DNA of 64,000 bases from Capsulimonas corticalis (lineage in GTDB: Bacteria > Armatimonadota > Armatimonadia > Armatimonadales > Capsulimonadaceae): positions 3,782,001-3,846,000 of the forward strand of contig NZ_AP025739.1 in assembly GCF_003574315.2 (NCBI RefSeq). Direction: 5' to 3'. Both the position numbers and the translations under genes were made by a program. Of the stretch, positions 10,232-58,107 are shown piece by piece (the stretch's first letter is position 1; each line of letters starts with the position of its first letter). The notes beneath the pieces were generated by a model that saw only the letters and a program-made list of their open reading frames with translations, was not told where the DNA came from and searched no databases.

Positions 10232-10243
10232 AACGCAGACCGA

Positions 10244-11062: not shown

Positions 11063-11080
11063 AGCGGATGCCGTTATTCC

Positions 11081-12145
11081 TTAACTGTTGTGTGTGAGCC
11101 GCCGCCATCGATGAATGATACGCGATAGCACTCTCCATCGCAGGATATGCGCCACATGCGAGATCATGAGCCAGCCAGGGGCGGGGAACAGCAATAACTG
11201 CGCGGCGAGGAGCACCCATGCCCCCTGTTCTACGCGCGCGTATTCGAGCAGATAGGCGACCGGAAAGAAAAATTGATAGTATTCCAGCATCGCGAACCGG
11301 AAGTTCACGGCTGGAGCCACAATGGTGACGTTTGCGGCGAGGTATCGGGTGCGCAGCCACTCTAACGCGACATAGAACGCGAGCAGTATCCACGCGATGG
11401 AGGATCCGCTGAGGACCAGGATGACTCCGAAGGCGCAAAGTTCGATCGGAAATACGATCCGCTCGCCCAAACGGCGCAGGAAGACGGGGTCGCGCCGTGC
11501 GCCCAAAGTCGCCGTTCCCGTAACGCGGTCGTTCCGCGCGTCATCGAGCTGATGCCAGAGGGTGCTCCGCAGGCCGAAGGCGATGGCCCAAACCGACATT
11601 CCGCCGATCCACACGGCGGGCGCGGGACCTCCCTTGGGAGCGATCAGTACGATGGTAAGCAGCGCGAACAAAAGATGCTCGCCCACCGCGAGGCACAGCG
11701 CCCCCCAGACGCCCCGCTCCTTCAGGCGGACCGGAGGGAGGGAGTACGCGGTGAATAGGAGCCACATCGATAAGTAGAGGAGGAGCGCCGCCAGATTGTG
11801 ACGCAGCAGAAACGCCGTCGCCGTCATGCTCGCCAGGACCGCCGCTAGCGTCGCCCGCTGACCGGCCGGCGACAGCCGCATCATCCCGGTCGTTTTTCCG
11901 GCCAGACGATCCTCGCGCTGATCCAGCAGATCGTTGAAGATGCTGGCGAAGATGGCGCAAGTGATCCCGGCCGCCATCAGAAGCAGCAGGGGGCTCCAGA
12001 GATTGTGCGCTGGAATATGCAGGCGCCATGCGAGCGCGTAGGCGACGCCCAGCGGGAATGTCAATTTGGAGTCCCACCAATCGCGCGCGCGAATCAAGGC
12101 AAGAAAATCCCGGCCGGACTGCATGGCGTTATCCCACTGTTTCAT
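11081..12145 (-). CDS. UbiA-family prenyltransferase-like membrane protein
   Basis: A 354-residue protein with about nine hydrophobic segments. The first Asp-rich motif is NDLLDQRED (71-79), matching the UbiA NDxxDxxxD pattern; the second is DDARNDRVTG (around 208-217). UbiA enzymes transfer a polyprenyl group, or in DPPR synthase join phosphoribose to a polyprenyl phosphate. Its position inside a polysaccharide export operon makes a lipid-carrier role more likely than quinone synthesis, but this is inference. Its start overlaps the end of the upstream ABC ATPase gene by 17 bp, indicating translational coupling. Confidence 0.72.
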   Translation of the reverse strand: MKQWDNAMQSGRDFLALIRARDWWDSKLTFPLGVAYALAWRLHIPAHNLWSPLLLLMAAGITCAIFASIFNDLLDQREDRLAGKTTGMMRLSPAGQRATLAAVLASMTATAFLLRHNLAALLLYLSMWLLFTAYSLPPVRLKERGVWGALCLAVGEHLLFALLTIVLIAPKGGPAPAVWIGGMSVWAIAFGLRSTLWHQLDDARNDRVTGTATLGARRDPVFLRRLGERIVFPIELCAFGVILVLSGSSIAWILLAFYVALEWLRTRYLAANVTIVAPAVNFRFAMLEYYQFFFPVAYLLEYARVEQGAWVLLAAQLLLFPAPGWLMISHVAHILRWRVLSRIIHRWRRLTHNS

Positions 12146-13460
12146 TGCGGCTCAATTCCTGCGCTTCGGTTTCGCGCTCCTCCAAGGACGTGTCGCCGAT
12201 ATGATTTACCATTTGAGCCCAGTTTGCGCTCAAGTGTACGATGCCGTTCCGATACGCCATCAGGTTTCCTTGCGGATCGGAATGGCCGTGGACTTCAAAG
12301 ATCACCCCGGCGTCCTGATAGCCCTTCCATCCCAGCACGATGCCGCTGTCTCGCGTCACCACGGATACGCAGAGGTGGTAAATGCCGGACGCGAGCGGAA
12401 ACGGATCGATCCGGCAAAGAAATTCATTGCGCCCCGGAGTCATGCGGTAACCGCTGTCTGCAAAACCTCCGATGTGCGTCGCCACCGGGAAGATCCCGCG
12501 GCTCCCAATCTCCACGCTGCACAGAACGGCCTCCGTGGTCTCGGAAGAATCGCAAACGATGCGGATCTCGACGGGATCGCCCGGGTAGATCCGGTCCCCG
12601 TCCGCGCCGATCACCTCAATGCTCTCGATTCGGACGAGCTCGTCGCAGGAACGATCGTCCGTCGTGGGCGCAGACGCCTTGTCTTCGAGGGATTTCCGGT
12701 CGCGCTCATGCGCCAGCGCCGTGTAGGCGTGGAGCGCCTCCGGAGTCGTCCCCGAGATGATCGCTTCGCCGCGATCCATCACCACGCATCGGTCGCACAT
12801 CGATTGAATCGTGTAAATATCGTGAGACGCCATGAGAATAGAGCCTCCGGCATCGATATGGTTCTTGAGAAAGCGGGCGAATTTGTTGCGAAAGCGCAGG
12901 TCGCCGCCGCTCAGCGCCTCGTCCACGATGAATAGGTCCGGCTTGAGCTGCGAGTAGATCGCGAACGCCAGGCGCGCCCGCATGCCCAGGCTATAGGACC
13001 CCACGGGGGCGTCCGCGAATTCCCCTAGTTCTGAATAGCCGACGACCGCTTCGATCGCCGCGTCGATATCCAGCGCGGACATGCCGTGGAGCGATAACTG
13101 GCTGCCGATGTTTTCGCGTCCCGTCTGCACGGGACTGAGACCGCTCTGATGGTCCATCGTCACCACGAGATCGGTATACAGCGAGATCGAGCCGAGGGTG
13201 GGGCGCAGGACGCCGCTCACGAGGTTGATCAGGGTGCTCTTGCCCGCGCCGTTGTGGCCGATCAGTCCGACGACCTCGCCGCGCGCAACCTGCATATTCA
13301 CATCGCGCACGGCCCAGAACTCGCCGGGGCGCAGCGCATCGCCTGGCGCGCGGCCGCAAATGTCGCTCCAGATGTCGCGCATCGCGTACGCCGCGGCGCG
13401 CCTGGGATCCCGGCAGTAGCGTTTCGAAAGATGATCGATTTCGAGAAGGATGTCATTCAT
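12129..13460 (-). CDS. Wzt-type ABC transporter ATP-binding protein for polysaccharide export
   Basis: A 443-residue ATPase subunit. It has Walker A GHNGAGKST (68-76), a signature in SYSLGMRARLAF (about 154-165) and Walker B LFIVDEALSGGD (about 176-187), where the family often has YSSGM in the signature. After residue ~270 comes a C-terminal beta-sandwich of the Wzt type (RIESIEVIGADGDRIYPGDPVEI), which in known systems recognises the modified non-reducing end of the glycan. It pairs with the permease gene 4 bp upstream in the operon. It drives export of an undecaprenyl-linked glycan across the inner membrane. Confidence 0.88.
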   Translation of the reverse strand: MNDILLEIDHLSKRYCRDPRRAAAYAMRDIWSDICGRAPGDALRPGEFWAVRDVNMQVARGEVVGLIGHNGAGKSTLINLVSGVLRPTLGSISLYTDLVVTMDHQSGLSPVQTGRENIGSQLSLHGMSALDIDAAIEAVVGYSELGEFADAPVGSYSLGMRARLAFAIYSQLKPDLFIVDEALSGGDLRFRNKFARFLKNHIDAGGSILMASHDIYTIQSMCDRCVVMDRGEAIISGTTPEALHAYTALAHERDRKSLEDKASAPTTDDRSCDELVRIESIEVIGADGDRIYPGDPVEIRIVCDSSETTEAVLCSVEIGSRGIFPVATHIGGFADSGYRMTPGRNEFLCRIDPFPLASGIYHLCVSVVTRDSGIVLGWKGYQDAGVIFEVHGHSDPQGNLMAYRNGIVHLSANWAQMVNHIGDTSLEERETEAQELSRNETVG

Positions 13461-13464
13461 GGAG

Positions 13465-14310
13465 TTACTTCAGAAATCGCTCCACAATAAAGGGACGGCT
13501 GACCCGGCAGAACAGGGCGCCAAAGAGAAAAAGAGCAACCGATATAACGACGCTCGCGGCGAGCGCGCCGCCATGTCCGGCGGGGTCTCCGTAAGTAAAC
13601 GCCCGCGCCGCCTCGAAGACCGAGGTCAGGGGATTGAGACGGTAGATCTGGTGCAGTCCGGAGCTGGACGGGACCTGGACAAAGACCGGGGTCAGCCCGA
13701 AGAGGATCCAGGGAAAGAAGGTCATGATATGATCGAGGTCGGGCTTCAAGGCGCTGGCGGGAGCGAACAGGAGTCCCAGTCCCGAACCCAGCACGCCGAC
13801 GGCGGCGACGCCCAGCAATCCCAGCGGGAGCGCCGCCGTCGGCGGGGTGTGAAAAATGACCGCGAAGATGGCGAGGACCGCCAGCTTGATCCCCAGGCCG
13901 ACCGCGTTATCGGCCGCGCCCGCCAGGATCAGCCCTTCCGTCGCCGTCTTTTGACGCCCCAGCAAGTGGCGGTTGCCGCTGAAGAGGTTTCGCTGCGTGT
14001 TGAATGTCTCCAGAAATGTCTGCGCCAGCATTAAGCCGAACACCGCGTAAAACTGGGGCGGCGTGGATGATCCGGTGTGCGCCAGCGGCAGGCCGCGTTT
14101 GCCGAATGTCAGCAGCGCCGCCGCCACGGGCGGCGCGACCGCCCAGAGCAGCCCCAGGGAAGAGTATCGATACCGTTGGGCGATCGTCTGCTGAAACCAG
14201 CGGCGGGCGGTCTCCCGCGAGGCAAGCAGGTCTGCGGCGGCGTCCCGCAGAAATTGGCGCGGACGCCGTAACGGGCTTTCGGCGGAATAGACTTTCGCGG
14301 GAAGGGACAA
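13465..14310 (-). CDS. ABC-2-type permease for polysaccharide export (Wzm-like)
   Basis: A 281-residue integral membrane protein with about six hydrophobic segments. It has the cytoplasmic N-terminal stretch typical of Wzm/TagG permeases (FQQTIAQRYRYSSLGLLWAV) and a C-terminal LNPLTSVFEAARAF segment before the last helices. It forms the channel with the ATPase encoded 4 bp downstream. The GT2 gene lies 21 bp upstream. Confidence 0.85.
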   Translation of the reverse strand: MSLPAKVYSAESPLRRPRQFLRDAAADLLASRETARRWFQQTIAQRYRYSSLGLLWAVAPPVAAALLTFGKRGLPLAHTGSSTPPQFYAVFGLMLAQTFLETFNTQRNLFSGNRHLLGRQKTATEGLILAGAADNAVGLGIKLAVLAIFAVIFHTPPTAALPLGLLGVAAVGVLGSGLGLLFAPASALKPDLDHIMTFFPWILFGLTPVFVQVPSSSGLHQIYRLNPLTSVFEAARAFTYGDPAGHGGALAASVVISVALFLFGALFCRVSRPFIVERFLK

Positions 14311-14331
14311 TTTCCGTTTCCTTTGCGCGCG

Positions 14332-15354
14332 TTATGGCCGCTTCGCTGTTTCCAGGACGGCCTGTCGCCGGCGGCGCACCTGCGAGGATGTGCTGTGTTT
14401 GCGGCTTCGAACCTCGCGTACGCACTTCAGCACGATCCCGGGGAAGAGCAAGAAGGCAAACAGCATGCAGCCGATCGCTCTGATGAGGAGACCGGGGACG
14501 ACGGCGATATTGCGCTCCGCCAGCTCCCACCTTGCCAAAACAAGCTGGTAAAACGCGAGGCGGGCGTAGTACCAGGATCGTTCGGAGGCGCTCATCATCG
14601 GGGCGAAGCGCTTCAGCAGAATATGAAAGTCATGCACGCAGAGATAGCGTTTGACGTCTTTGCTGCTTCGCTGGTCGCAGATGTTGTCGCCAAAGACGCG
14701 CTTTCGCCAGCGGGGATGGGAGGAAACGGCGACGCGGCGCGGTTTGGATAACACCAGGCCCAGCAACAGATCCCAGTCGTCGGCGATCTTCAGGTCTTCA
14801 GCCCAGCCGTTCTCCAGCAGCTCACGCGGCAGGAGGAAGGACGACGAGGGCGAAATGCAGGCGTCCACATAGATGGCGCGCGCCTGTTCCGGCTCCATGA
14901 TCAGCCAGCCCTTTAGCTCCGTTTCCCGGTAATGGCGCCAGCCGTAGATCTCCTCGAAATTGCTGACGAAGGACTCGCCATCCGCCGTCTGCCCCTTCCA
15001 ATTCGAGAAGACGAAATCGGCCTTGAGCGTGCGCAGCGCGCGCAGGCTGCTTTCCAAAAAGTCCGGATCCCAGAGATCGTCCGAGTCCAGCGAGCAGATA
15101 AAAGCGCCGTCGGCGTGGCGCAGGCCAAGGTTTCGCGCGGCGCCCTGTCCCCGGTGCTCCTGGCGCACGTAGAGGACATCCGTCGCCCGGGACATGATTT
15201 CGGCGGTGTTGTCGTCTGAGCCGTCGTCGGCGACGATGATCTGGACGTGCGGCCACGTCTGCTGGCGAACGCTCGCCACGGCCTGGAGAAGCAGCGCGGA
15301 GCGATTATAGGTGGGGATAATGACCGATACGAGATCGGCGTTAGAGTCGGCCAT
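14332..15354 (-). CDS. Family 2 glycosyltransferase
   Basis: A 340-residue GT-A fold enzyme: VSVIIPTYNRS (9-19), VADDGSDDNT (41-50), the DSD metal and nucleotide-sugar site in CSLDSDDLWD (87-96), and an ADDWDLLL acceptor-side motif. A hydrophobic helix near residues 300-320 anchors it to the membrane. The open frame extends upstream, but the family N-terminus begins at ATG 15354, which overlaps the end of the GT4 gene by 14 bp. It probably adds a sugar during assembly of the exported glycan. Confidence 0.87.
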   Translation of the reverse strand: MADSNADLVSVIIPTYNRSALLLQAVASVRQQTWPHVQIIVADDGSDDNTAEIMSRATDVLYVRQEHRGQGAARNLGLRHADGAFICSLDSDDLWDPDFLESSLRALRTLKADFVFSNWKGQTADGESFVSNFEEIYGWRHYRETELKGWLIMEPEQARAIYVDACISPSSSFLLPRELLENGWAEDLKIADDWDLLLGLVLSKPRRVAVSSHPRWRKRVFGDNICDQRSSKDVKRYLCVHDFHILLKRFAPMMSASERSWYYARLAFYQLVLARWELAERNIAVVPGLLIRAIGCMLFAFLLFPGIVLKCVREVRSRKHSTSSQVRRRRQAVLETAKRP

Positions 15355-16672
15355 GGGAAGTCGCCTCCGTTCGCGTTTGATTGAGCGCCAGCGCCAGCTT
15401 TTCCGCAAACTCGTCGCCCGGGCTCTCGGGGACCAAAAGCCGGATGCGTTTTGCGGCTTCCCGTCCGATCGCTTCCCATTCGTCGCGCCGGCTCCAGGCG
15501 CGTTCCAGCACATCGTCCAGCGAAGCCGCGTCCGTTCCCCGGGCGAGGAATCCTGTCTCGCCGTCGTCAACGACTTCTCCGCTGCCGCCGGCGTTGGTGA
15601 CGATGGGCGGCCGGCCGCACATCATCGCCTCCACCACCACCAGCGGAAGGCCCTCGGCGCGCGAGGGCAGCACCAGAGCGTGGTGCTCGCTCCAGACGGA
15701 CAGGATATCGTCCGTAAAGCCATGAAAGACGACATTGCGCAGGTCCAGCATCTCCGCCGCGCGCTCCAGCGCCTCACGGTGAATGCCCTGCCCGTAGAAG
15801 TTCACCTCCAGATCGCGCCGCCGCCACTTTTCCTGCGCCAGCACGTCCAGCAGGCTGTCCTGACCCTTTTCCAGGACGAACAGTCGAGCAATGCAGGCAA
15901 GTCGAAAATGTCCGGAAGCTGTTTCGGGATATGGCGGCGGCGCGCCGCCGGCGGTCAAAAAGGGATTTCGTACGACCTCCGCGTTCGGAAGCTTGCAGGC
16001 GATTTGCCGCTCCGTCAACGCTTGATTGTGGCGCGAGACGAAATACACGCGGCGGGCGTCCCGGTAGGAGAGCCGCATCTCCTCACGAACGAAATCTCCC
16101 GGCCAATTTAAGTCCGAGGCTTTCTGGCAAATCAGCACGTACGGAACGCCGAGCTTGCGGCAGGCGGCGGAGAAGTGAAGGCCGTCGAAATTCTCGCCTT
16201 GAGAGATCACGGCCAGATCGGGCGCCAGAGCCTTGAGCCGCCGCCCGAAGATGAACTGGTAAAGCCCCAGCAGGCGCTGCTTCCAGGACTGGGTAGGCGC
16301 TGGATGGCTTTGAGATCCATCAGATCCATGGGTTTTGTCCTGGCGCGGCGCGGCGGCTCGGAGCATCATTCCCAGGATGCGCCGGACGAGCGCAAAGGTG
16401 AGTTGAAGGTAGGAGGCGCCCAGGTAATCCTCGACCGAGACGCCCGAGGACAAAAGCTCCCGAATACGGGGGTGATCGCGGACCACCAGCGTCTTGCAGA
16501 CGGACACGCGATGGCCGTCGCTGGATAGGCGCAGCGCGGCTTGGGACCAGAGCTCCTCACTGCCGCCCCATGGCTCCGGGCAGGAGCTGAGGAAGAGAAA
16601 GCGCGAACTTGGACATGACGCGCGGGCAGTCGGCGTGACTGCCTCTGGAATAGAAGGGTGAGCTGAAATCAT
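15341..16672 (-). CDS. Family 4 glycosyltransferase
   Basis: A 443-residue GT-B fold transferase, first gene of the minus-strand glycan operon. The N-terminal domain has a GGSEELW motif, and the C-terminal domain carries the GT4 donor-site pattern ending in VLPSRAEGLPLVVVEAMMCG and PPIVTNAGGSGE. It likely adds a sugar from an NDP-sugar to the lipid-linked glycan on the cytoplasmic face. ATG 16672 was chosen because it begins the conserved portion; an upstream in-frame start at 16720 would add 16 residues lacking family character. The operon order is GT4, GT2, permease, ATPase, UbiA-like, sulfotransferase. Confidence 0.85.
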   Translation of the reverse strand: MISAHPSIPEAVTPTARASCPSSRFLFLSSCPEPWGGSEELWSQAALRLSSDGHRVSVCKTLVVRDHPRIRELLSSGVSVEDYLGASYLQLTFALVRRILGMMLRAAAPRQDKTHGSDGSQSHPAPTQSWKQRLLGLYQFIFGRRLKALAPDLAVISQGENFDGLHFSAACRKLGVPYVLICQKASDLNWPGDFVREEMRLSYRDARRVYFVSRHNQALTERQIACKLPNAEVVRNPFLTAGGAPPPYPETASGHFRLACIARLFVLEKGQDSLLDVLAQEKWRRRDLEVNFYGQGIHREALERAAEMLDLRNVVFHGFTDDILSVWSEHHALVLPSRAEGLPLVVVEAMMCGRPPIVTNAGGSGEVVDDGETGFLARGTDAASLDDVLERAWSRRDEWEAIGREAAKRIRLLVPESPGDEFAEKLALALNQTRTEATSHGRL

Positions 16673-16805
16673 GGTAATCCAAACACCGGCAAAGTCAACA
16701 AACAATCGGCGAGATCGCACTCACGGCTTCTGTAGACAATATACCGTGAATCCTACGGTTTGTACCGGCAATTTTTCCAGGAATTGCGCTCGGGCCCTCA
16801 AATGG

Positions 16806-16838
16806 AAAAACCCCATCCATTCGAGAGAATGGATGGGG
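16806..16838 (-). terminator. Rho-independent terminator of aroF
   Basis: A 12-bp perfect stem (16811-16822 with 16827-16838) with a GAGA loop, followed on the minus strand by five T residues (complement of 16806-16810). It lies 17 bp past the aroF stop and separates aroF from the glycan operon. Confidence 0.9.
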
Positions 16839-16855
16839 TGTATTGGAAGCGGCGA

Positions 16856-17878
16856 TTACATATAGCGGCCGACGGCTTCGACCACGGCGCGAAGCTCGGG
16901 CATCAGCTTCTCGAAGGCGGGGATGGTGATGCTCTGGGCGCCGTCCTTCAGCGCCTTCTCCGGGTTCGGGTGGACTTCCACCAGGACGCCGTCCGCGCCC
17001 ACGGCGGCGGCGGCTTTGCACATCGCCGGAACCATGGAGGAGCGCCCGGTGCCCTGCGAGGGGTCGATGATGACCGGAAGGTGGGAGAGCTCGCGGACGG
17101 CGAGGACCGCCGAGAGGTCCAGCGTGTTGCGGGTGTAGGTCTCGGAGGTGCGCACGCCGCGCTCGCAGAGCATAACGGCGTCGTTTCCGCCCTTGATGAT
17201 GTACTCGGCGGCCTGGAGCCACTCTTCGATCTTCGCGGACATGCCGCGCTTGAGCATGACCGGCTTCTTGACCTTGCCGACTTCGATCAGAAGATCGTAG
17301 TTCTGCATGTTGCGGGTGCCGATCTGGAGGATGTCCGCGTACTTGCAGACCAGATCGATATTGCCCACATGCATGACTTCGGTAATGATCGGCAGGCCGG
17401 TTTCTTCACGGGCCTGGGCCAGCAGCTTGAGGCCGTCCTCGCCCATGCCCTGGAAGGAGTAGGGGCTGGTGCTCGGCTTGAAGGCGCCGCCGCGAAGGAC
17501 GGTCGCGCCGCCGGCCTTGACGGCGCGGGCCGCCGTCATCAGCTGCTCTTCGGACTCAACGGTGCACGGGCCGGCCATCATGACGAAGCTGTTGTCGCCA
17601 ATGACGACGTCGCCGACTTTGACCTGACTCTTCTCGGGGCGGAATTCCTTGCTGGCGAAACGATACGGCTTCAAGATCAACACTGCTCTTTCGACGGAAG
17701 GAAGGGACTCGACTTGCTCCGCGACGCGGGCTTCGTCCTGAGTGGGCGCGCCGACTGCGGCGATCACCGTACGCTCGACGCCATAGATTGGGTGGATCTC
17801 GTAACCCCACTCCTGAAGCGCGCCTTCGACTTCACCAATCTGCTCTTTTGTGGCGTCGGCCTGCATTATCACGATCAT
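16856..17878 (-). CDS. aroF: 3-deoxy-7-phosphoheptulonate (DAHP) synthase, type I beta (AroF/KdsA-like)
   Basis: A 340-residue enzyme for the first step of the shikimate pathway, condensing phosphoenolpyruvate with erythrose-4-phosphate. Residues 1-70 form the small ferredoxin-like regulatory domain found in this subclass (Thermotoga/Geobacillus type). The barrel then shows [49 protein letters not shown] and [10 protein letters not shown], all standard for the family. A terminator follows. The start has GGAG about 12 nt upstream. Confidence 0.95.
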
Positions 17879-17990
17879 TGTGCGAAAATCTCCATGTTGA
17901 TATTAGGACGATGCCCCGTCGCCTTCGCCCTTGTCCTTAAGAATTTAAAATAGCCTTCAAATCCACCCACGGCCTTCGGGCGACCCCTTG

Positions 17991-18225
17991 CAAACCCACC
18001 CCGGCCCTTCGGGCCACCCCTCCCGCCGACGGGAAGGGTGATTTCAGAGCGTGTTATCGCAGGCGGCCTTCGTCAGAGGCAATCTTATCAACCCTTCCCG
18101 TCGGCGGGAGGGGTGGCCCGCAGGGCCGGGGTGGGTTTGCCCGGGAGCATGCGAAACGCCGGGTTAGATTTGCCCGGGAGCACGCGAAGCGCCGGGGTGG
18201 GTTTGCCCAGGGTTTGCGTGAGAAA
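17991..18225. repeat. Large inverted repeat plus 33-bp tandem repeat between aroF and hisC
   Basis: Arm 1 (17992-18042) and arm 2 (18087-18138) are about 50 bp each and complementary except for one mismatch and one indel. Each contains the sub-palindromes GGCCCTTCGGGCC and CCCGCCGACGGG. The loop is ~44 bp. Directly after arm 2 follow 2.7 copies of a 33-bp unit beginning TTTGCCCGGGAGCA (copies start at 18136, 18169 and 18202). This is a dispersed-looking intergenic element in a 347-bp gap; I see no gene in it. Confidence 0.8.
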
Positions 18226-19317
18226 CTAGCTCTCCAGCACCGCCGTCAGCGCCGCGATGAACCGTTCGTTCTGCGCCATGGTTCCCACGGTCACGCGAAT
18301 GTGGGTGGGGAGGCCCAGGCCCGCGCCGGCGCGGACGATTACGCCGAGGCGCTGCAGCGCTTCGAAAACTTCCTTGCTGTCGCGCTTGACGTCAACGCAC
18401 ACGAAATTCGCTTCGCTGGGGATAAACTCCAGTCCAAGGCGCTGAAACTCGCGATAGTAATAGTCGCGGCCTTCATAGTTCAGCGCGACGGCGCGGCGGA
18501 TATGCTCCTGGTCCACGACGCCGGCGGCGGCGGCGGCCTGGCCGATCAGGTTGACATTGAACGGGGAGCGCACGCGGTTGAGCAGCTCGGCGATCCGAGG
18601 CGGCGCGATCCCGTAACCGACGCGCAGGCCCGCGAGGCCGTACGCCTTGGAAAAGGTGCGCAGGATGATGACATTGCGATCGTCACGGACATAAGGACGC
18701 ATGTCGGGCTTGTCGGCGTGGCTGACGTATTCGTCATACGCTTCGTCGAAGACGACGAGGACATGCGGCGGGACGCGCTCCATAAATCTGTCGACTTCGG
18801 CCTGCGTCACCAGGGTGCCCGTGGGATTGTTCGGATTGGCGATAAAAAGCAAGCGCGTTCCGGGCGTGATGGCGTCGGCCATCGCTTCCAGATTGTGCGT
18901 ATAGTGGGTCAGCGGGACGCGATGGATCTTGGCGTTCGCCTGCGCGGCGTAGATCTCGTACATCGCAAAGGACGGATCCGCCTGCACGGTTTCTTCACCG
19001 GGCTGCAAAAACGTCATCGTCAGAAGGTGCAGAATCTCGTCGCTGCCGTTGCCAAACACGAGTGTGTTCGGCGGCATGCTGACCAGTTCCGAGACGGCGG
19101 CGCGCAGGGCCGGCGCGTTGCCGTCGGGATAGATCGAGACGCCATGCGCGCACGCAGCGATCGCTTCGGCGGCGAGGGGAGAAGGGCCGAGCGGGTTTTC
19201 GTTCGACGCCAGCTTGACGACATCGGTGAGTCCCAGCTCGCGTTTTACTTCGTCGATCGGCTTGCCCGGCTGATACGGACGAAGGGCCAGTATGTGTTCG
19301 GAGATCGGTAAGCTCAT
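18226..19317 (-). CDS. hisC: Histidinol-phosphate aminotransferase
   Basis: A 363-residue fold-type I PLP enzyme of histidine biosynthesis, converting imidazole acetol phosphate and glutamate to histidinol phosphate. Visible motifs include LASNENPLGPSP near the N-terminus, FGNGSDEIL, ANPNNPTGT, VVFDEAYDEY and the PLP-lysine loop RTFSKAYGLAGLRVGYG. The start is ATG 19317 because AAGGA lies 10 nt upstream; in-frame codons further up lack a ribosome site. Related aromatic aminotransferases share this sequence, so activity on aromatic substrates cannot be excluded; aroF lies next door. Confidence 0.9.
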   Translation of the reverse strand: MSLPISEHILALRPYQPGKPIDEVKRELGLTDVVKLASNENPLGPSPLAAEAIAACAHGVSIYPDGNAPALRAAVSELVSMPPNTLVFGNGSDEILHLLTMTFLQPGEETVQADPSFAMYEIYAAQANAKIHRVPLTHYTHNLEAMADAITPGTRLLFIANPNNPTGTLVTQAEVDRFMERVPPHVLVVFDEAYDEYVSHADKPDMRPYVRDDRNVIILRTFSKAYGLAGLRVGYGIAPPRIAELLNRVRSPFNVNLIGQAAAAAGVVDQEHIRRAVALNYEGRDYYYREFQRLGLEFIPSEANFVCVDVKRDSKEVFEALQRLGVIVRAGAGLGLPTHIRVTVGTMAQNERFIAALTAVLES

Positions 19318-19739
19318 AAGTAGGGTTTCCTTGATCCCCATTATTTTAGCACAATCAGGCGTACGACCGCAAGAACGGAGCCTCGGAAGCGCGATGGCGT
19401 AAAAAATGCAGAAAGCATATCTAGCATTCGGAACATTATTGGGAATTTCATCGTATAATGGGAAAAGGACCAGAATTGGTCCATGCGGATCCATTTAGAA
19501 AACTTCTTTGGACATTTATATAAAATTCATTGACGTTTTCATAAATAAGTGGTATATTGAAATCGAAGCTCTTTAATCAGAGCTCCTATGAGAGATCAGT
19601 CAATTTTGTTACCCGAAGCAGCGCAGCATCTCATTGGCGCATCTCATGATTTGTGACAGCAGTGCGCGCCGTATTCCTTAACAACCGGCGGCGCTGCTAG
19701 TGAATATAGAAGAATTGGACTATACAGGAGAATCGTCAA
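19318..19739 (+). promoter_or_regulatory. 422-bp gene-free stretch with promoter and structured leader of the HNH-repeat gene
   Basis: The promoter is TTGACG (19530-19535), 17 bp, TATATT (19553-19558). An isolated TATAAT at 19454-19459 lacks a good -35. The ~175-nt leader contains a small hairpin AGCTCT/AGAGCT (from 19567) and a larger imperfect hairpin between AGCAGTGCGC (about 19660) and GGCGCTGCT (about 19690), then AGGAG before ATG 19740. No other gene is seen. Confidence 0.65.
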
Positions 19740-20390
19740 ATGCATCGTAAGTGGAGCAAAGAATCCATCGCCATGGAAATTGTCAGCATGTACGAGTCCG
19801 GCGAGAACCTCAACTACTCCAGCGTCGCTGCCAACAATCTGTCGCTGCTGCGCGCCGCCACTCGCTACTTTGGGACCTGGGAAGCGGCCGTCAACTTCTC
19901 CGGCCTCGATTATGAGCAGATCCGCCGCTATAAGTCCTGGACCCGCGAGCGCATCATCGCCCGCATTCAGGAACTGCATTCGCAGGGCGTCGATCTGTCC
20001 TGGCGTAATGTTTGTTTGAACGTCGACCCGCAGCTCGCCGCCGCCGCGACCAAGAAGAGCCATTTTGGCTCCTGGCGCGAAGCGCTGGAGAGCTCCGGCC
20101 TGAACTACGACGACATCCGCCGCTATCGCGAGTGGGATGACGAGCGGGTTCTGGCCATGGTGCGCGAGTTCCACAAGAACGGCGCCGGGCTCAACGCCAA
20201 GAACATGGAAGCCGAAGATATCACGCTGATCACGGCGGCCCGCCGCCGGTTCGACTCCTGGCACCAGGCGCTCACCGCCGCCGGTCTCGACTACCGCGAG
20301 ATCGTCCAGCGCGCCCCATTCAAGCGCGGGCTTGGACGCGGACAGAGCAAGCGCGCCGGGATCACCCCGGGCGTCGCCACCCGCTCCTAA
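19740..20390 (+). CDS. Stand-alone HNH-endonuclease-associated repeat protein
   Basis: A 216-residue protein built of three ~65-residue repeats (1-65, 66-130, 131-193) and a basic tail (194-216). Each repeat has the order W(S/T/D)xExI, a G-x-x-L-x segment, an AA-(T/R)-x-x-F-(G/D)-(T/S)-W core and (S/A)GL(D/N)Y. This is the pattern of the HNH_repeat domain found next to homing endonucleases, where it is thought to bind DNA. No HNH or other nuclease motif is present, so the protein may be a DNA-binding regulator or nucleoid-type protein; that is inference. It has its own promoter, a structured leader and a strong terminator, so it is monocistronic. Confidence 0.7.
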   Translation: MHRKWSKESIAMEIVSMYESGENLNYSSVAANNLSLLRAATRYFGTWEAAVNFSGLDYEQIRRYKSWTRERIIARIQELHSQGVDLSWRNVCLNVDPQLAAAATKKSHFGSWREALESSGLNYDDIRRYREWDDERVLAMVREFHKNGAGLNAKNMEAEDITLITAARRRFDSWHQALTAAGLDYREIVQRAPFKRGLGRGQSKRAGITPGVATRS

Positions 20391-51197: not shown

Positions 51198-51979
51198 TTA
51201 CGGATCGGCGCGGGCGATTCGGAAACCGACTTCATCCTGGTCCGGTGGGGTTCGTTTGGGCGTCGCTGGGATACGGGCCGTCGTCATACCAATCCTCGCA
51301 CCACATCCAGAGATTGCCGTTGATGTCATAGACGCTGTAGGCGTTCGGCTTCAGAAGACCCACGGATGCGTTTCTCCGCCGGCGTTTCGGTCACAGCAGG
51401 CGTACGCCTTCGGCTGGTCCTAATCTGCGTCATCGCCGTCAAAGAACCAGGTCGTTCCTGCCCGGACGACAAACTCATATTCCGCCGATGTTAGCAGACG
51501 GTATCCATTCTCTTTGATATCGCAATGGAAATCTTCCAGCGCCGTAACGCCCGTCGCCGCAGTTTTCGTCACCGATCGATAGGAGTAAATCTGATCGAAC
51601 CCGTCCCGCTTGCTCAGCATATTGCAGTACACCACGGCGTCGTATCAAGAGACATCGTCGATTGGCCGCTGGAGATCGCCTGGATACTTGGTAAAATTGG
51701 TTCCCATCGTCATTTAGTACTCCTCTTAAGTAACCTGAGTCGCGGATTGGATCACATCGTAGGAGAATGTCATTGGGTGGGCAGGAAAAGTATAGATCCA
51801 CCGTTCCCTTCAAACTGCTGTCCAAAAGTGAACGTCTGTCCTTTCGTCGGGATGCGCACCCATCCGGCCGACGTCGTTTTTGGATCAACCTTCGACCTGA
51901 GCCACGCCTGCGCCCTCGTCGCGCCCACCACAATCAGCGCGGCGCACAGCGCCGCCAATGTCCATTTTCTTATTTCCAT
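51198..51979 (-). pseudogene. Decayed formylglycine-generating-enzyme-like (FGE/SUMF1) gene
   Basis: Reading the minus strand from ATG 51979: a signal peptide (MEIRKWTLAALCAALIVVGA), then GWVRIPTKGQTFTFGQQFEG, which is the start of an FGE domain. The frame then shifts near 51770. After TFSYDVIQSATQVT come TAA (51726-51728), EEY, TAA (51714-51716), MGTNFTKYPGDLQRPIDDVS, then TGA (51645-51647) where the family has Trp, then YDAVVYCNMLSKRDGF and NGYRLLTSAEYEF. A stop at 51420 follows. After further shifts VGLLKPNAYSVYDINGNLWM and WCEDWY appear, and finally GFRIARADP. At least four stops and three frameshifts rule out a working gene. Confidence 0.85.
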
Positions 51980-52024: not shown

Positions 52025-52175
52025 GCTAGCGAACGCGCCGGCGATTATGGCTCATTCGACCAATAAGGATAGGAACTGCAAAAACAAATACCGGAAGCCA
52101 GTCGGGCATCACATATCTGTACTTGCGTCGGCGTAAGTGCTGGGCATCGGAAGTCGTTGGCAACGCCAAAAGTCT
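52025..52175 (-). pseudogene. 3' remnant of a paralogue of the membrane-protein gene at 55153-55638
   Basis: In one frame FWRCQRLPMPSTYADAS matches FWRYRILPMPSAHPE of the intact gene; in another, KYRYVMPDWLPVFVFAVPIL matches its WLAIPGWRPVLVFSFF. The DNA words GCTGGGCATCGGAAG are identical in both copies (52139-52153 region and 55264-55278 region). The 5' part is missing exactly where the AT-rich helicase gene begins, so the insertion probably truncated it. Confidence 0.6.
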
Positions 52176-52184
52176 AATACAGAA

Positions 52185-55088
52185 TCATGCTATTTCTTCT
52201 ATCATTTTTTTCAATTCGTGTGATTGTTGTTCTTTGGGTTTGAGATACACCGAACAAATACGAGTGCACAATTCAGGATTGTAGTGATTGCTATTAAGCC
52301 AACATTGGACCGCAGATATCGCTTCTTCTTCGATTGATAGAGGACTTATTAGTGATTTGGGTTCGTCATATCCACAATTAATTAAATCAAGAGATGCGCT
52401 GATGTCAATTTCTTTTACGGTTTTAGTATCGATATCATATAGAATTACATAGTAGCCTGCTTGGTATTCCAGCAATGCTAGTATGCTATGCTTATGTGAG
52501 GTCGTAGATTTTGCCGTGAATAGTGTTGTAGGCAATTCTGATATTTCACTTTGATATTTTTTGAAAATTGACATATGATTGAGAAAAGAAGGTGATGTGT
52601 CTTGGAGGAGCTCTTCTGGCAATATCAGATTTTCAGGATAAGCAGCAATATCTGATTCTGTAGCTAGAGATATTGTATAATCAGAGTTTTGTCCGTCCGC
52701 GTTAGGTAATATACTTCTTCCTATGAGACTCCTTGAATTGTCATGTCGTTCGTGTAATCTTGAAATCATTCTTTTGATAATCTTTGCCGCCTGAGTCTCT
52801 TTATTGTGTAGCGTGGGTTCAAATGTGTAAATGTGTATAGCACGATTGCGTTCTTCCGTCATGCGTAAAACACGACCAGCTCGTTGAAATAATTCATCAG
52901 CACTTTGAGGCAAATCATAATTTATTATTATATTAGCATCTTGCATATTTAAGCCGATACCGTCAGCATCTGTGCATATTAAAATGTTGTATTCTTGCTC
53001 ATGTTGAATGTCACTTACTCCTGAAGAACGAGGAGAAAAATGTTCAATGATATTTTTTCTGTTAGTGAGTGATTTAATAGTATGCTTATTATTTTCTTTC
53101 TGTACCGTACATGCAATTTTTGTAAACGGGAAATTATTTTCTAAAAGCTTGTGTATACTCATAGCTGTTAAGTGTCTTTTTGTGAATATAATAGCCTTTT
53201 CTTTTTGTTCAATATGTGTTTGGATAATGTTCTTTAGTTTGACGAATTTTTCTTCTGTTTCTAAGTTTATTTTGTTTAGTCCATCGACTATAGGGTTTAG
53301 TATATTCTTTCGAAACTCTTCGCTGTGTGTATAGTTTGTACGGTAAAAATCGGAGACTGTTTCGGATGACAATGGGATGCTTAATTCTTCGTTGTTGAAT
53401 ATTTGCATTTGTACTTGCTCGTCTTTTTTATGTGTATTATCGGGAGCATTGTTTCGGCATCTGCTAATGAAATACAGCATCATGTCTACAGAACCTGTCC
53501 ATGCAAGTATGGCATTGTTGCTTGAAACATCTGCGGCTATTAATTCATTCTTATCTTTTTGTTCATTAAAAACATCGAAAGGAATACGGTCTGCTTTAAA
53601 TACTTGGTTTTCAAATGCATGTTGTATGTCTTCTTGTAAGAATAATGAATATTCTGTCCTGTGCAGAACTATTTTACTGGGGAAATAACGATTTGACTGT
53701 CTGTCAGGCATAGAAATGAAAATTCTCCCATCTTCTTCTACATCCTTTCTAGAAATCGCCATTTTTAAAAGAGTAATTATTCCTAAAATACTAACTATCG
53801 GCAAATTTTTAACTTCTGATAAACTATTTACTTTCCAATGATCGCTATCATGGAATAAATTATCTTTTTGAGGATATAAAGGTAGCATCCGGAGAAGACT
53901 GTTTAAGTCTTGACGATCAGTTCCATAAGGAGTCGCTGTTAACAGTAGGACGCTTCCGCCTGTATTGTGGAATTTATCGATTCTCTCTCTCACTATGTTA
54001 ATTTTAGCTTCTACGCCTTTTGTGTTTTGACGTTGTATGTTCGCGTCTTTTTGCAACATTTTACGATATACATGCGCTTCATCTATAACTAAAACACTGT
54101 TTTTGTTGCTTTGTTCTAAAAACTTTAACAATGTGTTTATTTGGTGTAACCTATTGTGAGATTGTTTTTTGAACAGAAGACTAGTGTCAAAATATTCAAA
54201 ATTTATATTTCTACTCCTCAATTGTGCTTCCCACGCTGACTTTACACTCTTTGGTCCTAATATAATAGCTAGAGAATCTCGGTTTGTAACTCGTCTGATA
54301 ATTTCTGAGCCTATAATAGTTTTTCCGAGACCTGTTGCTGCTAATACAATTGATCCCTTGTATTTGTTTATTTGTTGTTCACTTGAATTAATTATTCCTT
54401 TTTGGAAATATGTCGGTATATACCCACCTGGGCCTAGTAGCGGTACTTCTCGCTCATAAGCAAACTGTAGAAACTTTAAATATGCTTGAAAAGGAGACGC
54501 CATTTCAAGCCACGTCTTGAGGCATAATTGTAAGGCCTCAATCAAATCATATGAGTTTGTAATTGTTTCATCAAAATGCTCTATGAACTGTTGTGTGTCT
54601 CTGCTTGATAATACGCTTGCTTGTTCGTGATTACCAGCTGATCCCAAGCCCTGTTTTGTAAAATTTGTCGAGCCATGCCAGATGATTTTATCATCAATAA
54701 TATAATATTTGCAGTGAAACAGACGGGGTGTATTAGTCTCCCATGCTCCTCGGATAATAAAATGTTTTGCTTCTATACGTTTTAATAAATCCGCTACAGT
54801 TTCTGAAAGAGGCGAAAGTGATCTGCCAAGCTCCAGCAGAATTTCATTGACGAACACAGGAATAGTGTTTTCGCCTTGGTCATTTCCAACTAGTATCTGT
54901 AATTGAACATTTGCTCTTAGGCTTGAGCGACTCTGTTCATACCCTGACAGCCTAAAATAGCCACTCGTTATTCGAATAATAGATTTGGCAATAGGGAAAT
55001 AAGCTTTGACAAAGCATAGGCCAATTCCGCGCCCTACACCTGAAATTGGCTTCTTGTTTGATCCGTACCGAACTTTGTAATTCGACAT
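52185..55088 (-). CDS. PLD-nuclease / SF2-helicase fusion protein (candidate defence gene)
   Basis: A 967-residue protein. The N-terminal PLD-like domain (about 1-180) has one HKD motif, H125-x-K127-x4-D132, followed by GSTN (139-142); single-HKD nucleases work as dimers. An SF2 helicase follows: motif I AATGLGKT (250-257), motif II VIDEAH (334-339), motif III LLTATPYG (382-389), motif V ICTDADGIGLN (704-714), motif VI QRAGRVLR (735-742). Motifs and order are like SNF2/Rad25-type DNA translocases. The DNA is far richer in A+T than all neighbours (many AAT, ATA, TTT codons), a sign of recent transfer. GAGGA lies 6 nt before the ATG. No methylase, integrase or partner gene adjoins it. Fusions of this type occur among phage-defence genes; a defence role is inference. 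Confidence 0.85.
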   Translation of the reverse strand: MSNYKVRYGSNKKPISGVGRGIGLCFVKAYFPIAKSIIRITSGYFRLSGYEQSRSSLRANVQLQILVGNDQGENTIPVFVNEILLELGRSLSPLSETVADLLKRIEAKHFIIRGAWETNTPRLFHCKYYIIDDKIIWHGSTNFTKQGLGSAGNHEQASVLSSRDTQQFIEHFDETITNSYDLIEALQLCLKTWLEMASPFQAYLKFLQFAYEREVPLLGPGGYIPTYFQKGIINSSEQQINKYKGSIVLAATGLGKTIIGSEIIRRVTNRDSLAIILGPKSVKSAWEAQLRSRNINFEYFDTSLLFKKQSHNRLHQINTLLKFLEQSNKNSVLVIDEAHVYRKMLQKDANIQRQNTKGVEAKINIVRERIDKFHNTGGSVLLLTATPYGTDRQDLNSLLRMLPLYPQKDNLFHDSDHWKVNSLSEVKNLPIVSILGIITLLKMAISRKDVEEDGRIFISMPDRQSNRYFPSKIVLHRTEYSLFLQEDIQHAFENQVFKADRIPFDVFNEQKDKNELIAADVSSNNAILAWTGSVDMMLYFISRCRNNAPDNTHKKDEQVQMQIFNNEELSIPLSSETVSDFYRTNYTHSEEFRKNILNPIVDGLNKINLETEEKFVKLKNIIQTHIEQKEKAIIFTKRHLTAMSIHKLLENNFPFTKIACTVQKENNKHTIKSLTNRKNIIEHFSPRSSGVSDIQHEQEYNILICTDADGIGLNMQDANIIINYDLPQSADELFQRAGRVLRMTEERNRAIHIYTFEPTLHNKETQAAKIIKRMISRLHERHDNSRSLIGRSILPNADGQNSDYTISLATESDIAAYPENLILPEELLQDTSPSFLNHMSIFKKYQSEISELPTTLFTAKSTTSHKHSILALLEYQAGYYVILYDIDTKTVKEIDISASLDLINCGYDEPKSLISPLSIEEEAISAVQCWLNSNHYNPELCTRICSVYLKPKEQQSHELKKMIEEIA

Positions 55089-55152: not shown

Positions 55153-55638
55153 CTAAGATAACTTTTTCTGAGATCTAAAAAAGGTGAAGAATGAGAAAAC
55201 TAAGACCGGACGCCAGCCCGGGATCGCAAGCCAGGACTCGCGGGGCATAAGCTCTGGATGGGCGCTGGGCATCGGAAGGATTCGGTAGCGCCAGAAGCCA
55301 ATGTGGTTCCACACGGAACGCGGCGCGATCAGTCGAGAGCGCTGGAAGAAGCGGCCGCCCCAGTCGAACGGTTTGAGCTTGTAATGGGGATAATCCTTGA
55401 AGCTATACTGTCCGGTTCCTATCCAGAAAGATCCATCGCCGATCCAGGGAGTTCGGTAGTAGCGTTGTTTCACATAGGGACCATGCCGACTGTCGGAATC
55501 GACACCTACAGAGGTGTATCTTCCAAAGTCCATTATCCAGAAAAGTAGAAATAAGATGGCGATGACTGCACTGATGATCTTTAGCGCTTTTGAAAAGATC
55601 ACGGATACAGGAAACGTCTTTATGATCGTAGCAGGCAT
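55153..55638 (-). CDS. Hypothetical membrane-anchored protein
   Basis: A 161-residue protein starting at ATG 55638 (the open frame runs further upstream but only as the shadow of a decayed ankyrin gene). One strong membrane helix (about 18-38, IISAVIAILFLLFWIMDF) is followed by a Trp/Tyr/Arg-rich region with WIGDGSFWIGTGQ and a second hydrophobic segment near the C-terminus (RPVLVFSFFTFF). No known domain recognised. A truncated relative lies at 52025-52175. Base composition is host-like, unlike the helicase gene beside it. Confidence 0.5.
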   Translation of the reverse strand: MPATIIKTFPVSVIFSKALKIISAVIAILFLLFWIMDFGRYTSVGVDSDSRHGPYVKQRYYRTPWIGDGSFWIGTGQYSFKDYPHYKLKPFDWGGRFFQRSRLIAPRSVWNHIGFWRYRILPMPSAHPELMPRESWLAIPGWRPVLVFSFFTFFRSQKKLS

Positions 55639-55693
55639 ATCGTTATTATGGCGTGAGCAATGATATAATCGACGTTGAGGATCGAACATTTCC

Positions 55694-56172
55694 ATGAGCT
55701 TACGTAATGAACTGCATGAGGCGTTCAAACGAGGCGATCGATAGCCGATTGATGCCCTGGTGATAGTCGACGCGGATATCGAGGAGCGCAATGGATAGGT
55801 CGGACGCCGTTGATGGCAGTCGCCATCGATGGTCAGATGGATCTGGTGAGGCGGCATGTGGAAGTGGGGGACGGATCCGTTTGCCGTGGACGCCGAAGGA
55901 AAATCCGTCATGCATATGGCGGCGATGCGTGGCGGTCCGGAGATCGTGCGCTGGCGGACTGGCTTGGGCGCGGATGTAAACGCCGTCGAGGGGGACGGTT
56001 CCGCGACTCCCCTACATCTAGCGGCAGCGCATGCGAAGCGCGCCGAACAAGCGGATTGGCGGCGGCAATATCGAGCGCTGGGATTCAGTCAAAAAGACCG
56101 CGTGTGATATCGCTTTGGAGATTCGAGAAATGGTCGGGGAGGACAATGGAGGTCATCGCGGCGCTTGCTTGA
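55694..56172 (+). pseudogene. Decayed ankyrin-repeat gene
   Basis: The plus strand starts ATGAGCTTACG with MSLRNELHEAFKRGD, then a TAG. Shifted frames give MAVAIDGQMDLVRRHVEVG, then DPFAVDAEGKSVMHMAAMRG and GPEIVRW, then TPLHLAAAHAKRA, then GGGNIERWDSVKKTACDIAL. These are ankyrin units broken by at least one stop and several frameshifts. The 5' end overlaps the region upstream of the hypothetical membrane-protein gene. Confidence 0.75.
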
Positions 56173-56241: not shown

Positions 56242-57795
56242 TTAGCGGCCGCTTCGGTCGCCGCCGCGTGGTCCGGTGGCTCGTCCGCCGCCGCCCGATC
56301 CCTGGTCGCCGCCACCACCGCCGGAGTTGCGGTCGTCGCGGCTGCTGCTGCGATTGTCCTGACTGCCGCCGCTGGAGCTGCGGTCGGCGCGCCCGCCACC
56401 GCCGCTGCTATATGTGCGGTCGCCGCCCGTGCTGTATGTGTGGCTGCCGCCGCTGTTGTAGGTGCGGTCGCCGCCTGTGCTGTATGTGCGGTTGCTGCTG
56501 CTGGAGCCGCGATCGTCGCGGCCGCCGCCGTAAGATCGGGTGGTGGATCCGCTGTCCGTACGAGACGGCGCCGATTCGTCCGCGCCATGGAAGGTGCGAT
56601 GGCCGTCATTGAATACGCGGCCGTTGTCCGACGTCTGACCGCCGTCCGTGGGACGACCTCCGCCGAAGGTGTGGCCCGGTTCGGTTGTCCGGCCGCTGCT
56701 GTACGTGCGTCCGCCGTCCGATGTGCGTCCGGTGTCTGATGTCCGGCCGCCGCCAAAGGTATGGCCGCCGTCCGACGGCCGGCCATTGTCCACGGTCCGG
56801 CCGCCTTCGAAGACGTGGTGATCGTTGCTCGGGCGTCCCGTGCTGAAGGTGTGATCGCCACGGTACGAGTGGTCGTTTCCGTAAGTGCGATCGCCGATTG
56901 TGGTGCGGTCGCCATGGAAGGTCCGGTCGTTGCCGTATGTGTGGCCGCTGGGATCGATGCGGCGTCCACCGCCGCCATAGGAACGATCGCCGGCTTCAAA
57001 CGGCCGTCCGCCGCCAAATTCGCGATGACGATCCCAGTTCGGCCGGCCGCCCCAGTCGTAGACGTCGCGGTGATAGTACGATTCGCGGTACGGCGCCGGA
57101 TGCCGGTAGTAATAGTCGTGGTAGTGGTCCCAGCCGTAATAGGGCCGGCCGCCGATTTCGATGAAGAAACCTGCCGTCGCGATAAAGATCCCGCCCCGGT
57201 AATATGGTCTGCCGCCCCAGTAGCCTCCCCAGCAATTCATGCCGTCATACCAGCCCATGCTGATATAGGAGTCCCAGCTCGGCGCGATGCCGACAAATAC
57301 CGGCGAGGCCGGGTGGAACTTCTCCGTGAAGGGATACCAGCGCGCGCCGGGGACGGTCGCGTTCTCCAGGTAGCCGTTGCGCGGGACATAAAGCACCGGA
57401 GCGGTTCCTTCATTGACGAAGAACATCTCATTGGTCGGAGAAACGGCGAACTTCATCACGTAGAGGTTATTGTTGGTGAATGGGACGACGATGGTTTCGC
57501 CGGACTTATCATAGAGCTGATATCCGCCCTTGTCGAATACCGCGCGCCGGATCGGCGCTTGCTGGTCTTGCGGCACTTCCGCCCAGTTGAACACCGAGTC
57601 CTGACTCGTGTTGACGGCGCCGGAATCATAATCCTGATCCTGCGAAGCGGCCTGCCCAATCGGCGGCGCCATCGTTATCGGCGGATCGGCGAACGCCGCC
57701 ATGCTCGTCATCATGAGCGCGGCCGTCGCGACAACGCCGGCCCCGCGCCGGGCGAGACGCTTGCCCGACGAGATGATATTGATCGGTTTCTCCAT
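56242..57795 (-). CDS. Secreted Gly/Arg/Ser/Thr-rich repeat protein
   Basis: A 517-residue protein. A basic N-terminus and signal peptide (about 1-37, ending MAAFA) precede a ~190-residue folded domain (VFNWAEVPQDQQ to Tyr/Trp-rich GWYDGMNCWGGYWGGRPYY). From about residue 250 to the end it is low-complexity, with repeats of the types GGRTSDxGRT, GDRTYGN and GGDRTYSSGG and a final Gly/Ser/Arg tail. Such tails suit cell-wall or matrix contact; the function is unknown. AAGGA lies 9 nt before ATG 57795, and a clear terminator follows. Confidence 0.65.
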   Translation of the reverse strand: MEKPINIISSGKRLARRGAGVVATAALMMTSMAAFADPPITMAPPIGQAASQDQDYDSGAVNTSQDSVFNWAEVPQDQQAPIRRAVFDKGGYQLYDKSGETIVVPFTNNNLYVMKFAVSPTNEMFFVNEGTAPVLYVPRNGYLENATVPGARWYPFTEKFHPASPVFVGIAPSWDSYISMGWYDGMNCWGGYWGGRPYYRGGIFIATAGFFIEIGGRPYYGWDHYHDYYYRHPAPYRESYYHRDVYDWGGRPNWDRHREFGGGRPFEAGDRSYGGGGRRIDPSGHTYGNDRTFHGDRTTIGDRTYGNDHSYRGDHTFSTGRPSNDHHVFEGGRTVDNGRPSDGGHTFGGGRTSDTGRTSDGGRTYSSGRTTEPGHTFGGGRPTDGGQTSDNGRVFNDGHRTFHGADESAPSRTDSGSTTRSYGGGRDDRGSSSSNRTYSTGGDRTYNSGGSHTYSTGGDRTYSSGGGGRADRSSSGGSQDNRSSSRDDRNSGGGGGDQGSGGGGRATGPRGGDRSGR

Positions 57796-58107
57796 CGCTG
57801 TTTTCCTTCTCAATTTGCTCTGAATGATAAATGGTTCTTATGCTAATATTAGAGACGTCATTGCAGCCTCGCTGGTTCCACAAAATTTCGAATATTTTAC
57901 AGAAGCAAGTAATTTTCTTTACGGGGATCGACCTTCATGAAAAATAGCGCCCGTGAACAAAAAAAGGCCGCGCGATCATATTCTGTGTCGTCCATTCTGA
58001 TTGGTAAGTTTCGTCATCAGAATCTGCATAAATGTACTCTGGCGACATAGAGCAGGGAATGATATAATGAAATGTACTAACATTTGAGAGTTTAGGATAG
58101 TAACCCA
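57796..58107 (+). promoter_or_regulatory. 312-bp divergent region upstream of the GH127 gene
   Basis: Plus strand: TATAAT (58063-58068) with a weak -35 TGGCGA (58040-58045). An inverted repeat AAATGT-ACTA-ACATTT (58070-58085) lies at the expected start, and a direct copy of AAATGTACT is at 58030-58038, upstream of the -35. These look like activator/repressor sites, perhaps for the AraC regulator encoded at 61422. For the minus-strand gene I see only TAATAT without a good -35. Confidence 0.55.

Follow-up and report, generated by a model that had tools for sequence, protein, structure and literature searches.

Can one gene that joins a nuclease to a helicase defend a bacterium by itself? An A+T-rich gene of Capsulimonas corticalis raises this question. 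The original prediction read it as a candidate single-gene defense system. We analyzed the gene in a window of 64,000 nucleotides (the whole stretch of DNA under study), compared its product with homologues from other phyla, and asked which known systems it resembles.

An HKD-Snf2 gene with foreign composition among pseudogenes

The intact open reading frame for a fusion of a phospholipase D-like (PLD) nuclease and a helicase lies on the minus strand, exactly where it had been predicted (Table 1). It starts with ATG and runs for 967 codons with no internal stops in the translation. A Shine-Dalgarno-like sequence stands just 5′ of the start codon. The gene is present once in the 7.65-Mb genome, which is a single contig. 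Promoter and terminator scans at the gene gave signals no commoner than in shuffles.

Table 1. Features of the HKD-Snf2 gene and its flanks, in window coordinates
Feature	Position	Strand	Basis
Solitary HKD-nuclease/Swi2-Snf2 gene, 967 aa, G+C 35.7%	52185..55088	(-)	Open reading frame with translation; Pfam; full-length homologues
PLD-like (HKD) nuclease domain, residues 34-174	54567..54989	(-)	PLDc_2, E 9.5e-11 (Pfam); PADLOC DrmC match, residues 119-170
HKD motif H125-x-K127-x4-D132, single copy	54693..54716	(-)	Invariant in 23/23 homologues
First RecA-like lobe, residues 226-387	53928..54413	(-)	ResIII, E 6.8e-7; Walker A K256 and DEAH 336-339 conserved
Second RecA-like lobe, residues 614-743	52860..53249	(-)	Helicase_C, E 7.5e-13; motif VI QRAGR 735-739
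Conserved C-terminal alpha/beta domain, residues ~833-951	52236..52592	(-)	Family conservation; predicted secondary structure
Shine-Dalgarno-like AGAGGAAA	55092..55099	(-)	Sequence just 5′ of the start codon
Broken FGE-sulfatase-like gene, downstream pseudogene, outside the system	51237..51940	(-)	Several stops in translation
Ankyrin-repeat-like debris with stops, upstream side	55700-56172	(+)	Overlaps 5′ part of the 252-aa open reading frame
34-nt direct repeat, 79% identical	52139..52172 and 55264..55297		Second copy in 3′ part of the neighboring gene

The A+T content had been described as far above that of all neighbors, and the G+C profile, block statistics and third codon positions agree. 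Against a mean of 62.0% G+C (SD 1.6%) in 2.9-kb blocks of the window's first 49 kb, the gene's 35.7% is far outside chance, and it is the lowest-G+C 2.9-kb stretch within the window. Its GC3 is 29%, compared to 59-86% in other window genes. The pseudogenes said to surround it are there as well, a sulfatase-like one on the left and ankyrin-like debris on the right. An intact 307-aa relative of the broken sulfatase-like gene occurs in a genome of the same genus (G021, L049:1384-2307), where it adjoins a relative of the repetitive window gene at 56242-57813 in an order different from that of the window. We sought an empty site in this genome and found none; gene order there differs. The upstream neighbor, a 252-aa open reading frame at 55153-55911 (-), is a single-copy orphan in the C. 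corticalis genome, and its true start is probably further in than called. Since a 34-nt repeat occurs on both flanks, the HKD-Snf2 gene lies between two related stretches. By its sequence the repeat looks like related gene ends on both sides, and it is possibly a remnant of the gene's arrival.

The original prediction saw neither a methylase nor a second component next to the gene. Indeed, when we probed the window with 17 defense proteins, taken from beside homologues or beside outgroup helicases, the only matches were cross-hits within the gene itself, to its helicase domain. Five methylase probes had no match in the window, nor did the window contain HmaB/HmaC-like sequence. A DUF499 protein is absent from the whole C. 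corticalis genome.

A conserved nuclease-motor fusion and its family

The protein had been predicted to carry one HKD motif (H125, K127 and D132) ahead of a complete SF2 helicase, and both Pfam and an alignment of 23 homologues bear this out. S140 and N142 accompany the motif and, like its three catalytic residues, are invariant in 23 members. So are the Walker A sequence TGLGKT (252-257), D336, E337, Q735, R736, G738 and R739. Since both catalytic sites are kept at about 25-30% identity, both activities are probably needed. With one HKD motif per chain, an active site would need a dimer, judging from BfiI and SauUSI.

We then examined the fold. An AlphaFold2 model of the protein (pLDDT 71.5, pTM 0.50) matches Swi2/Snf2 DNA translocases over residues ~215-800 in a PDB fold search, with Z up to 19.4; SauUSI is absent among the matches listed. 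A profile search of PDB sequences also returns Snf2 and RapA proteins. The fold check that the original prediction proposed gives a Swi2/Snf2 motor, and the N-terminal region, where lack of a PLD fold would have spoken against the idea, matches PLDc_2. The conserved C-terminal domain matches no Pfam model. Its predicted secondary structure follows the order alpha-beta-beta-beta-alpha-beta. Modeled alone, this region reached a pLDDT of 61, and Foldseek found no significant match for that model; the best match on a second look was RapA, a weak one (103 residues, Z 6.2). RapA and BrxHII have been described as containing an alpha+beta domain that resembles a degenerate REase (PMC12839542). The order of elements, together with this description, suggests that the C-terminal domain is possibly of the same kind.

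A single-protein query of genome contigs returned no homologues, and a family alignment was needed to find them. About 20 full-length collinear homologues emerged, all in cyanobacteria and Chloroflexota. They are about 920-975 aa long and align end to end with the C. corticalis protein, C-terminal domain included, at 24-36% identity; single-sequence matches extend over almost all of its length, with E-values of 1e-54 or lower. Members, fragments among them, reach 435-1596 bits with the family alignment, compared to about 75-112 bits for other PLD-helicase stretches in the same genomes. The C. corticalis protein itself scores 990 bits with a family profile that includes it, and other PLD-helicases score 234 at most. 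Judged by these scores, above 430 bits for homologues and 240 or less for other PLD-helicases, the homologues are a discrete family. In a maximum-likelihood tree, 22 members split from outgroup PLD-helicases and HmaA with 100/100 support; the outgroup branches are long and their branching order is unsure. The C. corticalis copy pairs (100/99) with a cyanobacterial copy that is 36% identical, the nearest copy found.

The family is rare. It was found in 8 of 386 cyanobacterial species, 3 of 400 Chloroflexota species and 1 of 291 Armatimonadota, the last being this copy, counted with a single-sequence query that is less sensitive than the family alignment. That query gave no other full-length match in the 291 Armatimonadota genomes. 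Viral contigs held no family members, and a phage collection yielded one partial helicase match only. Several homologues reside on cyanobacterial plasmids and others on chromosomes. Several copies are broken (L038, L039, L041, L042 and G535). Low, patchy frequency and broken copies are the behavior of an accessory, transferred gene. Consistently housekeeping chromosomal homologues would have argued against a defense role; those we found are patchy, often plasmid-borne or broken. Taken with the foreign composition, the taxonomic isolation of the C. corticalis copy points to horizontal acquisition. Stops or frameshifts occur in cyanobacterial copies at L038, L039, L041, L042, L030 and L067, with hosts that include Hormoscilla, Okeania, Coleofasciculaceae, Hydrocoleum and Microcystis; this suggests frequent decay of the family.

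Defense genes beside homologues and the proposed function

Clustering of 430 open reading frames around the homologues revealed no recurrent partner gene and no recurrent methylase. The genes that do recur are lineage-specific or belong to mobile elements, for example a tyrosine recombinase. At least 10 of about 20 independent loci adjoin known defense genes, which recur in kind and not in identity. On a Tolypothrix plasmid (L021), the homologue is immediately preceded by MkoA and MkoB (E 8e-272 and 2e-86), with about 245 bp separating it from MkoB. HmaA and an HEC-04-like ATPase accompany the Nostoc copy (L034); HmaB, HmaC and PDC-S39 the Chlorogloea copy (L029); and Cas10 with Csx10, of CRISPR III-D type, the Kamptonema copy (L035). 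Other loci contain BnzB of Bunzi (L027), PDC-S02 (L075), pPIWI-RE (L077) or a mad3-like protein (L097). The closest relative (L076) has NsnA about 250 nt downstream. In a Chloroflexota locus (L096), DrmD follows the homologue after about 50 nt, and the locus also encodes an OLD-like ATPase together with a type III methylase/restriction pair. L023 contains a methylase that bears HSDR_N and specificity domains, whereas L022, in a near-identical plasmid context, lacks it.

To put numbers on this association, we scanned 50 neighbors from five loci and matched 64 PADLOC families at E 1e-20 or better, which correspond to at least nine different proteins. At the same cut-off, 79 control proteins from seven random 20-kb regions, taken from only two of the homologue genomes, matched 3 families. 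Since PADLOC models overlap and are redundant, family counts exaggerate the ratio of neighbors to controls. The neighborhood survey, which the original prediction had proposed as a check, found defense genes beside homologues, with random regions of two genomes much poorer in them. The association fits a defense enzyme, an anti-plasmid function or DNA repair alike.

Two features of these loci deserve a comment of their own. At L096, positions 9452-19998 hold the PLD-helicase, DrmD, an OLD/AriA-like ATPase and the type III methylase/restriction pair, tightly packed; this may be an uncatalogued DISARM-like hybrid. In Nostocales, a tyrosine recombinase lies near the homologue in differing orientation (L021 19259-20269, L025 13176-14168, L036 13534-14553) and is possibly the vehicle of transfer.

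Since its relatives often stand beside known anti-virus genes, the HKD-Snf2 gene probably encodes a one-gene, restriction-enzyme-like defense of a little-studied type. In the best reading, which we hold to be somewhat better than even, the gene came by horizontal transfer and its product is a restriction-type defense enzyme that stands alone and acts as SauUSI does. The SauUSI-like architecture led us to propose an ATP-dependent, dimeric enzyme acting alone; its dimerization, translocation, cleavage and target choice, and defense itself, are inferred. Two chains would pair through their PLD domains, forming one active site around two HKD motifs. The Swi2/Snf2-type motor would load on incoming DNA judged foreign, hydrolyze ATP and translocate on double-stranded DNA. 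Upon stalling or collision, the PLD dimer would cut both strands. Recognition would fall to conserved family-specific regions, the C-terminal domain included, and the cue could be that a base is modified, that a modification is missing or that the DNA has an abnormal structure. For telling self from non-self, we would place modification reading ahead of sensing of unusual DNA, and that ahead of recognition borrowed from another system.

Several lines of evidence bear on the stand-alone reading. Both active sites are, by alignment, invariant in 23 proteins, although the others share only about 24-36% identity with this one. There is no recurrent partner, and the plasmid contexts with and without a methylase add to this. 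Against it, probing with 17 proteins detected no defense neighbor at the window copy, the motor is not close to SauUSI/DUF3427 helicases, and no known recognition domain was found. The reading as a single-gene defense candidate is well supported by context, through the patchy family, the missing partner and the defense neighbors of homologues, for a role that stays putative.

Other explanations have to be weighed against this one. The protein could be a sensor of the Hachiman/Druantia kind, in which the motor surveys DNA and, on meeting single-stranded DNA or ends specific to phage, frees the PLD nuclease for broad DNA destruction, halting the infected cell. Such a sensor would need no methylase or modification reader, and none was found with the HKD-Snf2 protein. 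The motor of HKD-Snf2, however, is of Snf2 type, and motors of this group are known more for movement along duplex DNA; its nearest relatives by sequence are subunits of methylase-linked systems; we consider this sensor unlikely. A little less likely still is an auxiliary effector, insufficient alone, that borrows recognition from a co-resident Hma, DISARM, Mokosh or restriction-modification system. HmaA or HmaB/HmaC is directly adjacent in two loci, and DrmD and MkoB come within ~50 bp (the Chloroflexota locus) and ~245 bp, respectively. But the neighboring system changes from locus to locus, the C. corticalis genome lacks a DUF499 protein, and the window lacks such a partner.

Whatever the family does, the C. 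corticalis copy may be a recently arrived relic, no longer expressed or useful. Pseudogene surroundings with no defense genes found nearby, unameliorated composition, promoter-like signals at chance frequency and the broken copies common elsewhere all favor this idea. A reading frame of 967 unbroken codons, the full set of catalytic residues and a good putative ribosome-binding site argue against it, and we think it improbable. We give the least credence to a mobile-element or DNA-repair gene without a defense role, carried by plasmids or islands. Several homologues do lie on cyanobacterial plasmids or beside tyrosine recombinases, and the fold relative RapA recycles RNA polymerase, according to the title of its structure entry. 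This explanation sits poorly with the fusion to a conserved HKD nuclease and with the many unrelated defense systems repeatedly adjacent, on chromosomes and plasmids.

If the stand-alone restriction reading is true, a motor group employed in multi-gene systems (DISARM, Dpd, Hma and BREX-related) can also serve in a restriction effector made by a single gene, a counterpart of SauUSI from a different motor lineage. HKD-Snf2 would then be a compact test case for how host DNA is spared without a methylase. For cyanobacteria, in which barriers to transformation are a practical problem, it also adds one simple candidate for what limits DNA transfer.

Comparison with known systems

SauUSI is a single-protein type IV restriction enzyme (PMC7913695, PMC3874153). 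It is a 953-aa chain with a single HKD motif whose PLD domains dimerize; its SF2 motor translocates on DNA, and the DNA between target sites is shredded (PMC7913695). The HKD-Snf2 protein resembles it in being one chain of about 950 aa in which a PLD nuclease domain with a single HKD motif comes first, a linker and the SF2 motor follow, and a further domain forms the C-terminus; no methylase would be needed. It shares a feature that marks the group, a single polypeptide in which the SF2 motor follows an N-terminal PLD domain bearing one H-x-K-x4-D/E motif. The motors differ, that of SauUSI resembling HsdR and LlaBIII and that of HKD-Snf2 being Swi2/Snf2, similar to RapA and DrmD. SauUSI also carries a C-terminal SRA/DUF3427 reader, and by sequence none was detected in the HKD-Snf2 protein, which matched neither DUF3427 nor SRA even at an E-value limit of 1; DUF3427 is absent from the whole C. 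corticalis genome. When six DUF3427 helicases, Armatimonadota proteins standing in for SauUSI in this motor comparison, were run against the family profile, there was a single match, at 14 bits, compared to 140-234 for methylase-linked PLD-Snf2 proteins. Because its motor comes from another SF2 group and no SRA/DUF3427 was detected by sequence, we do not file HKD-Snf2 as a member of the SauUSI group.

The methylase-linked PLD-Snf2 helicases, with an N-terminal PLD domain and the same motor, are the closest relatives by sequence; examples are L. plantarum pLPBLS41_3, Synechocystis pSYSX, Natrinema pNVE500 and Calothrix. They are longer than the HKD-Snf2 family, ~1,100-1,150 aa compared to ~920-975 aa, and most have a large DNA methylase gene as a neighbor. 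Five methylase probes revealed no large N6-type methylase beside the HKD-Snf2 gene, and it was not assigned to such loci. Plasmid loci of this type in Lactiplantibacillus, Synechocystis, Natrinema and Calothrix (L052, L053, L054 and L055) pair a large DNA methylase with a ~1,100-aa PLD-Snf2 helicase and represent a broader two-gene family related to the HKD-Snf2 family; the methylase at L055 is an unannotated 1,116-aa protein. Loss of the methylase, together with shortening, may have given rise to the HKD-Snf2 family. It could be a distinct one-protein family of immune effectors in which a Swi2/Snf2 motor similar to those of RapA and DrmD bears an HKD nuclease, the methylase partner is lost and a new recognition rule lies within the chain; the family would be thinly spread in Chloroflexota and cyanobacteria, with a transfer to one species of Armatimonadota. 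We put this proposal at somewhat short of even.

In type-2 BREX-related (BR) systems, the proposed primary nuclease effector is a Swi2/Snf2 helicase that begins with an HKD domain (PMC12839542), and the HKD-Snf2 protein has the same arrangement. By sequence it is more distant from the BR helicase than from the methylase-linked helicases. BR helicases sit in operons with DUF499, an N6-MTase and DUF3780. With DUF499 missing from the C. corticalis genome and HmaB/HmaC-like sequence from the window, membership was rejected. The models NCBIfam NF042964 (65 bits, cut-off 1100), PADLOC C3a139 (HKD+Snf2; only 60 bits) and PLD_Helicase, with bit scores given for the HKD-Snf2 protein, are taken from their names to represent the BR helicase.

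The original prediction pointed to DISARM, Dpd and Mokosh. It caught the motor relatives DrmD and DpdE and missed SauUSI, the functional analogue. DISARM DrmD, Dpd DpdE, HmaA and RapA share the Swi2/Snf2 motor group of HKD-Snf2, and DrmD and HmaA examples score 79-86 bits with the family profile. DrmD, DpdE and HmaA act in multi-gene systems, and RapA acts on RNA polymerase; to our knowledge, none of the four has an N-terminal HKD domain. The HKD-Snf2 protein reached 82 bits with DpdE (cut-off 500) and 57 bits with DrmD (cut-off 610), so DISARM and Dpd were set aside. Mokosh follows a similar helicase-plus-PLD logic, and an MkoA/MkoB pair is the direct neighbor of the Tolypothrix homologue. 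It is a different protein family, and no Mokosh model is among the PADLOC matches listed for HKD-Snf2. The architecture is less unusual than had been implied: SauUSI (PMC7913695), BR systems (PMC12839542) and the methylase/PLD-helicase loci share an N-terminal HKD domain on an SF2 motor. The HKD-Snf2 architecture is a variation on this known kind and not a new category.
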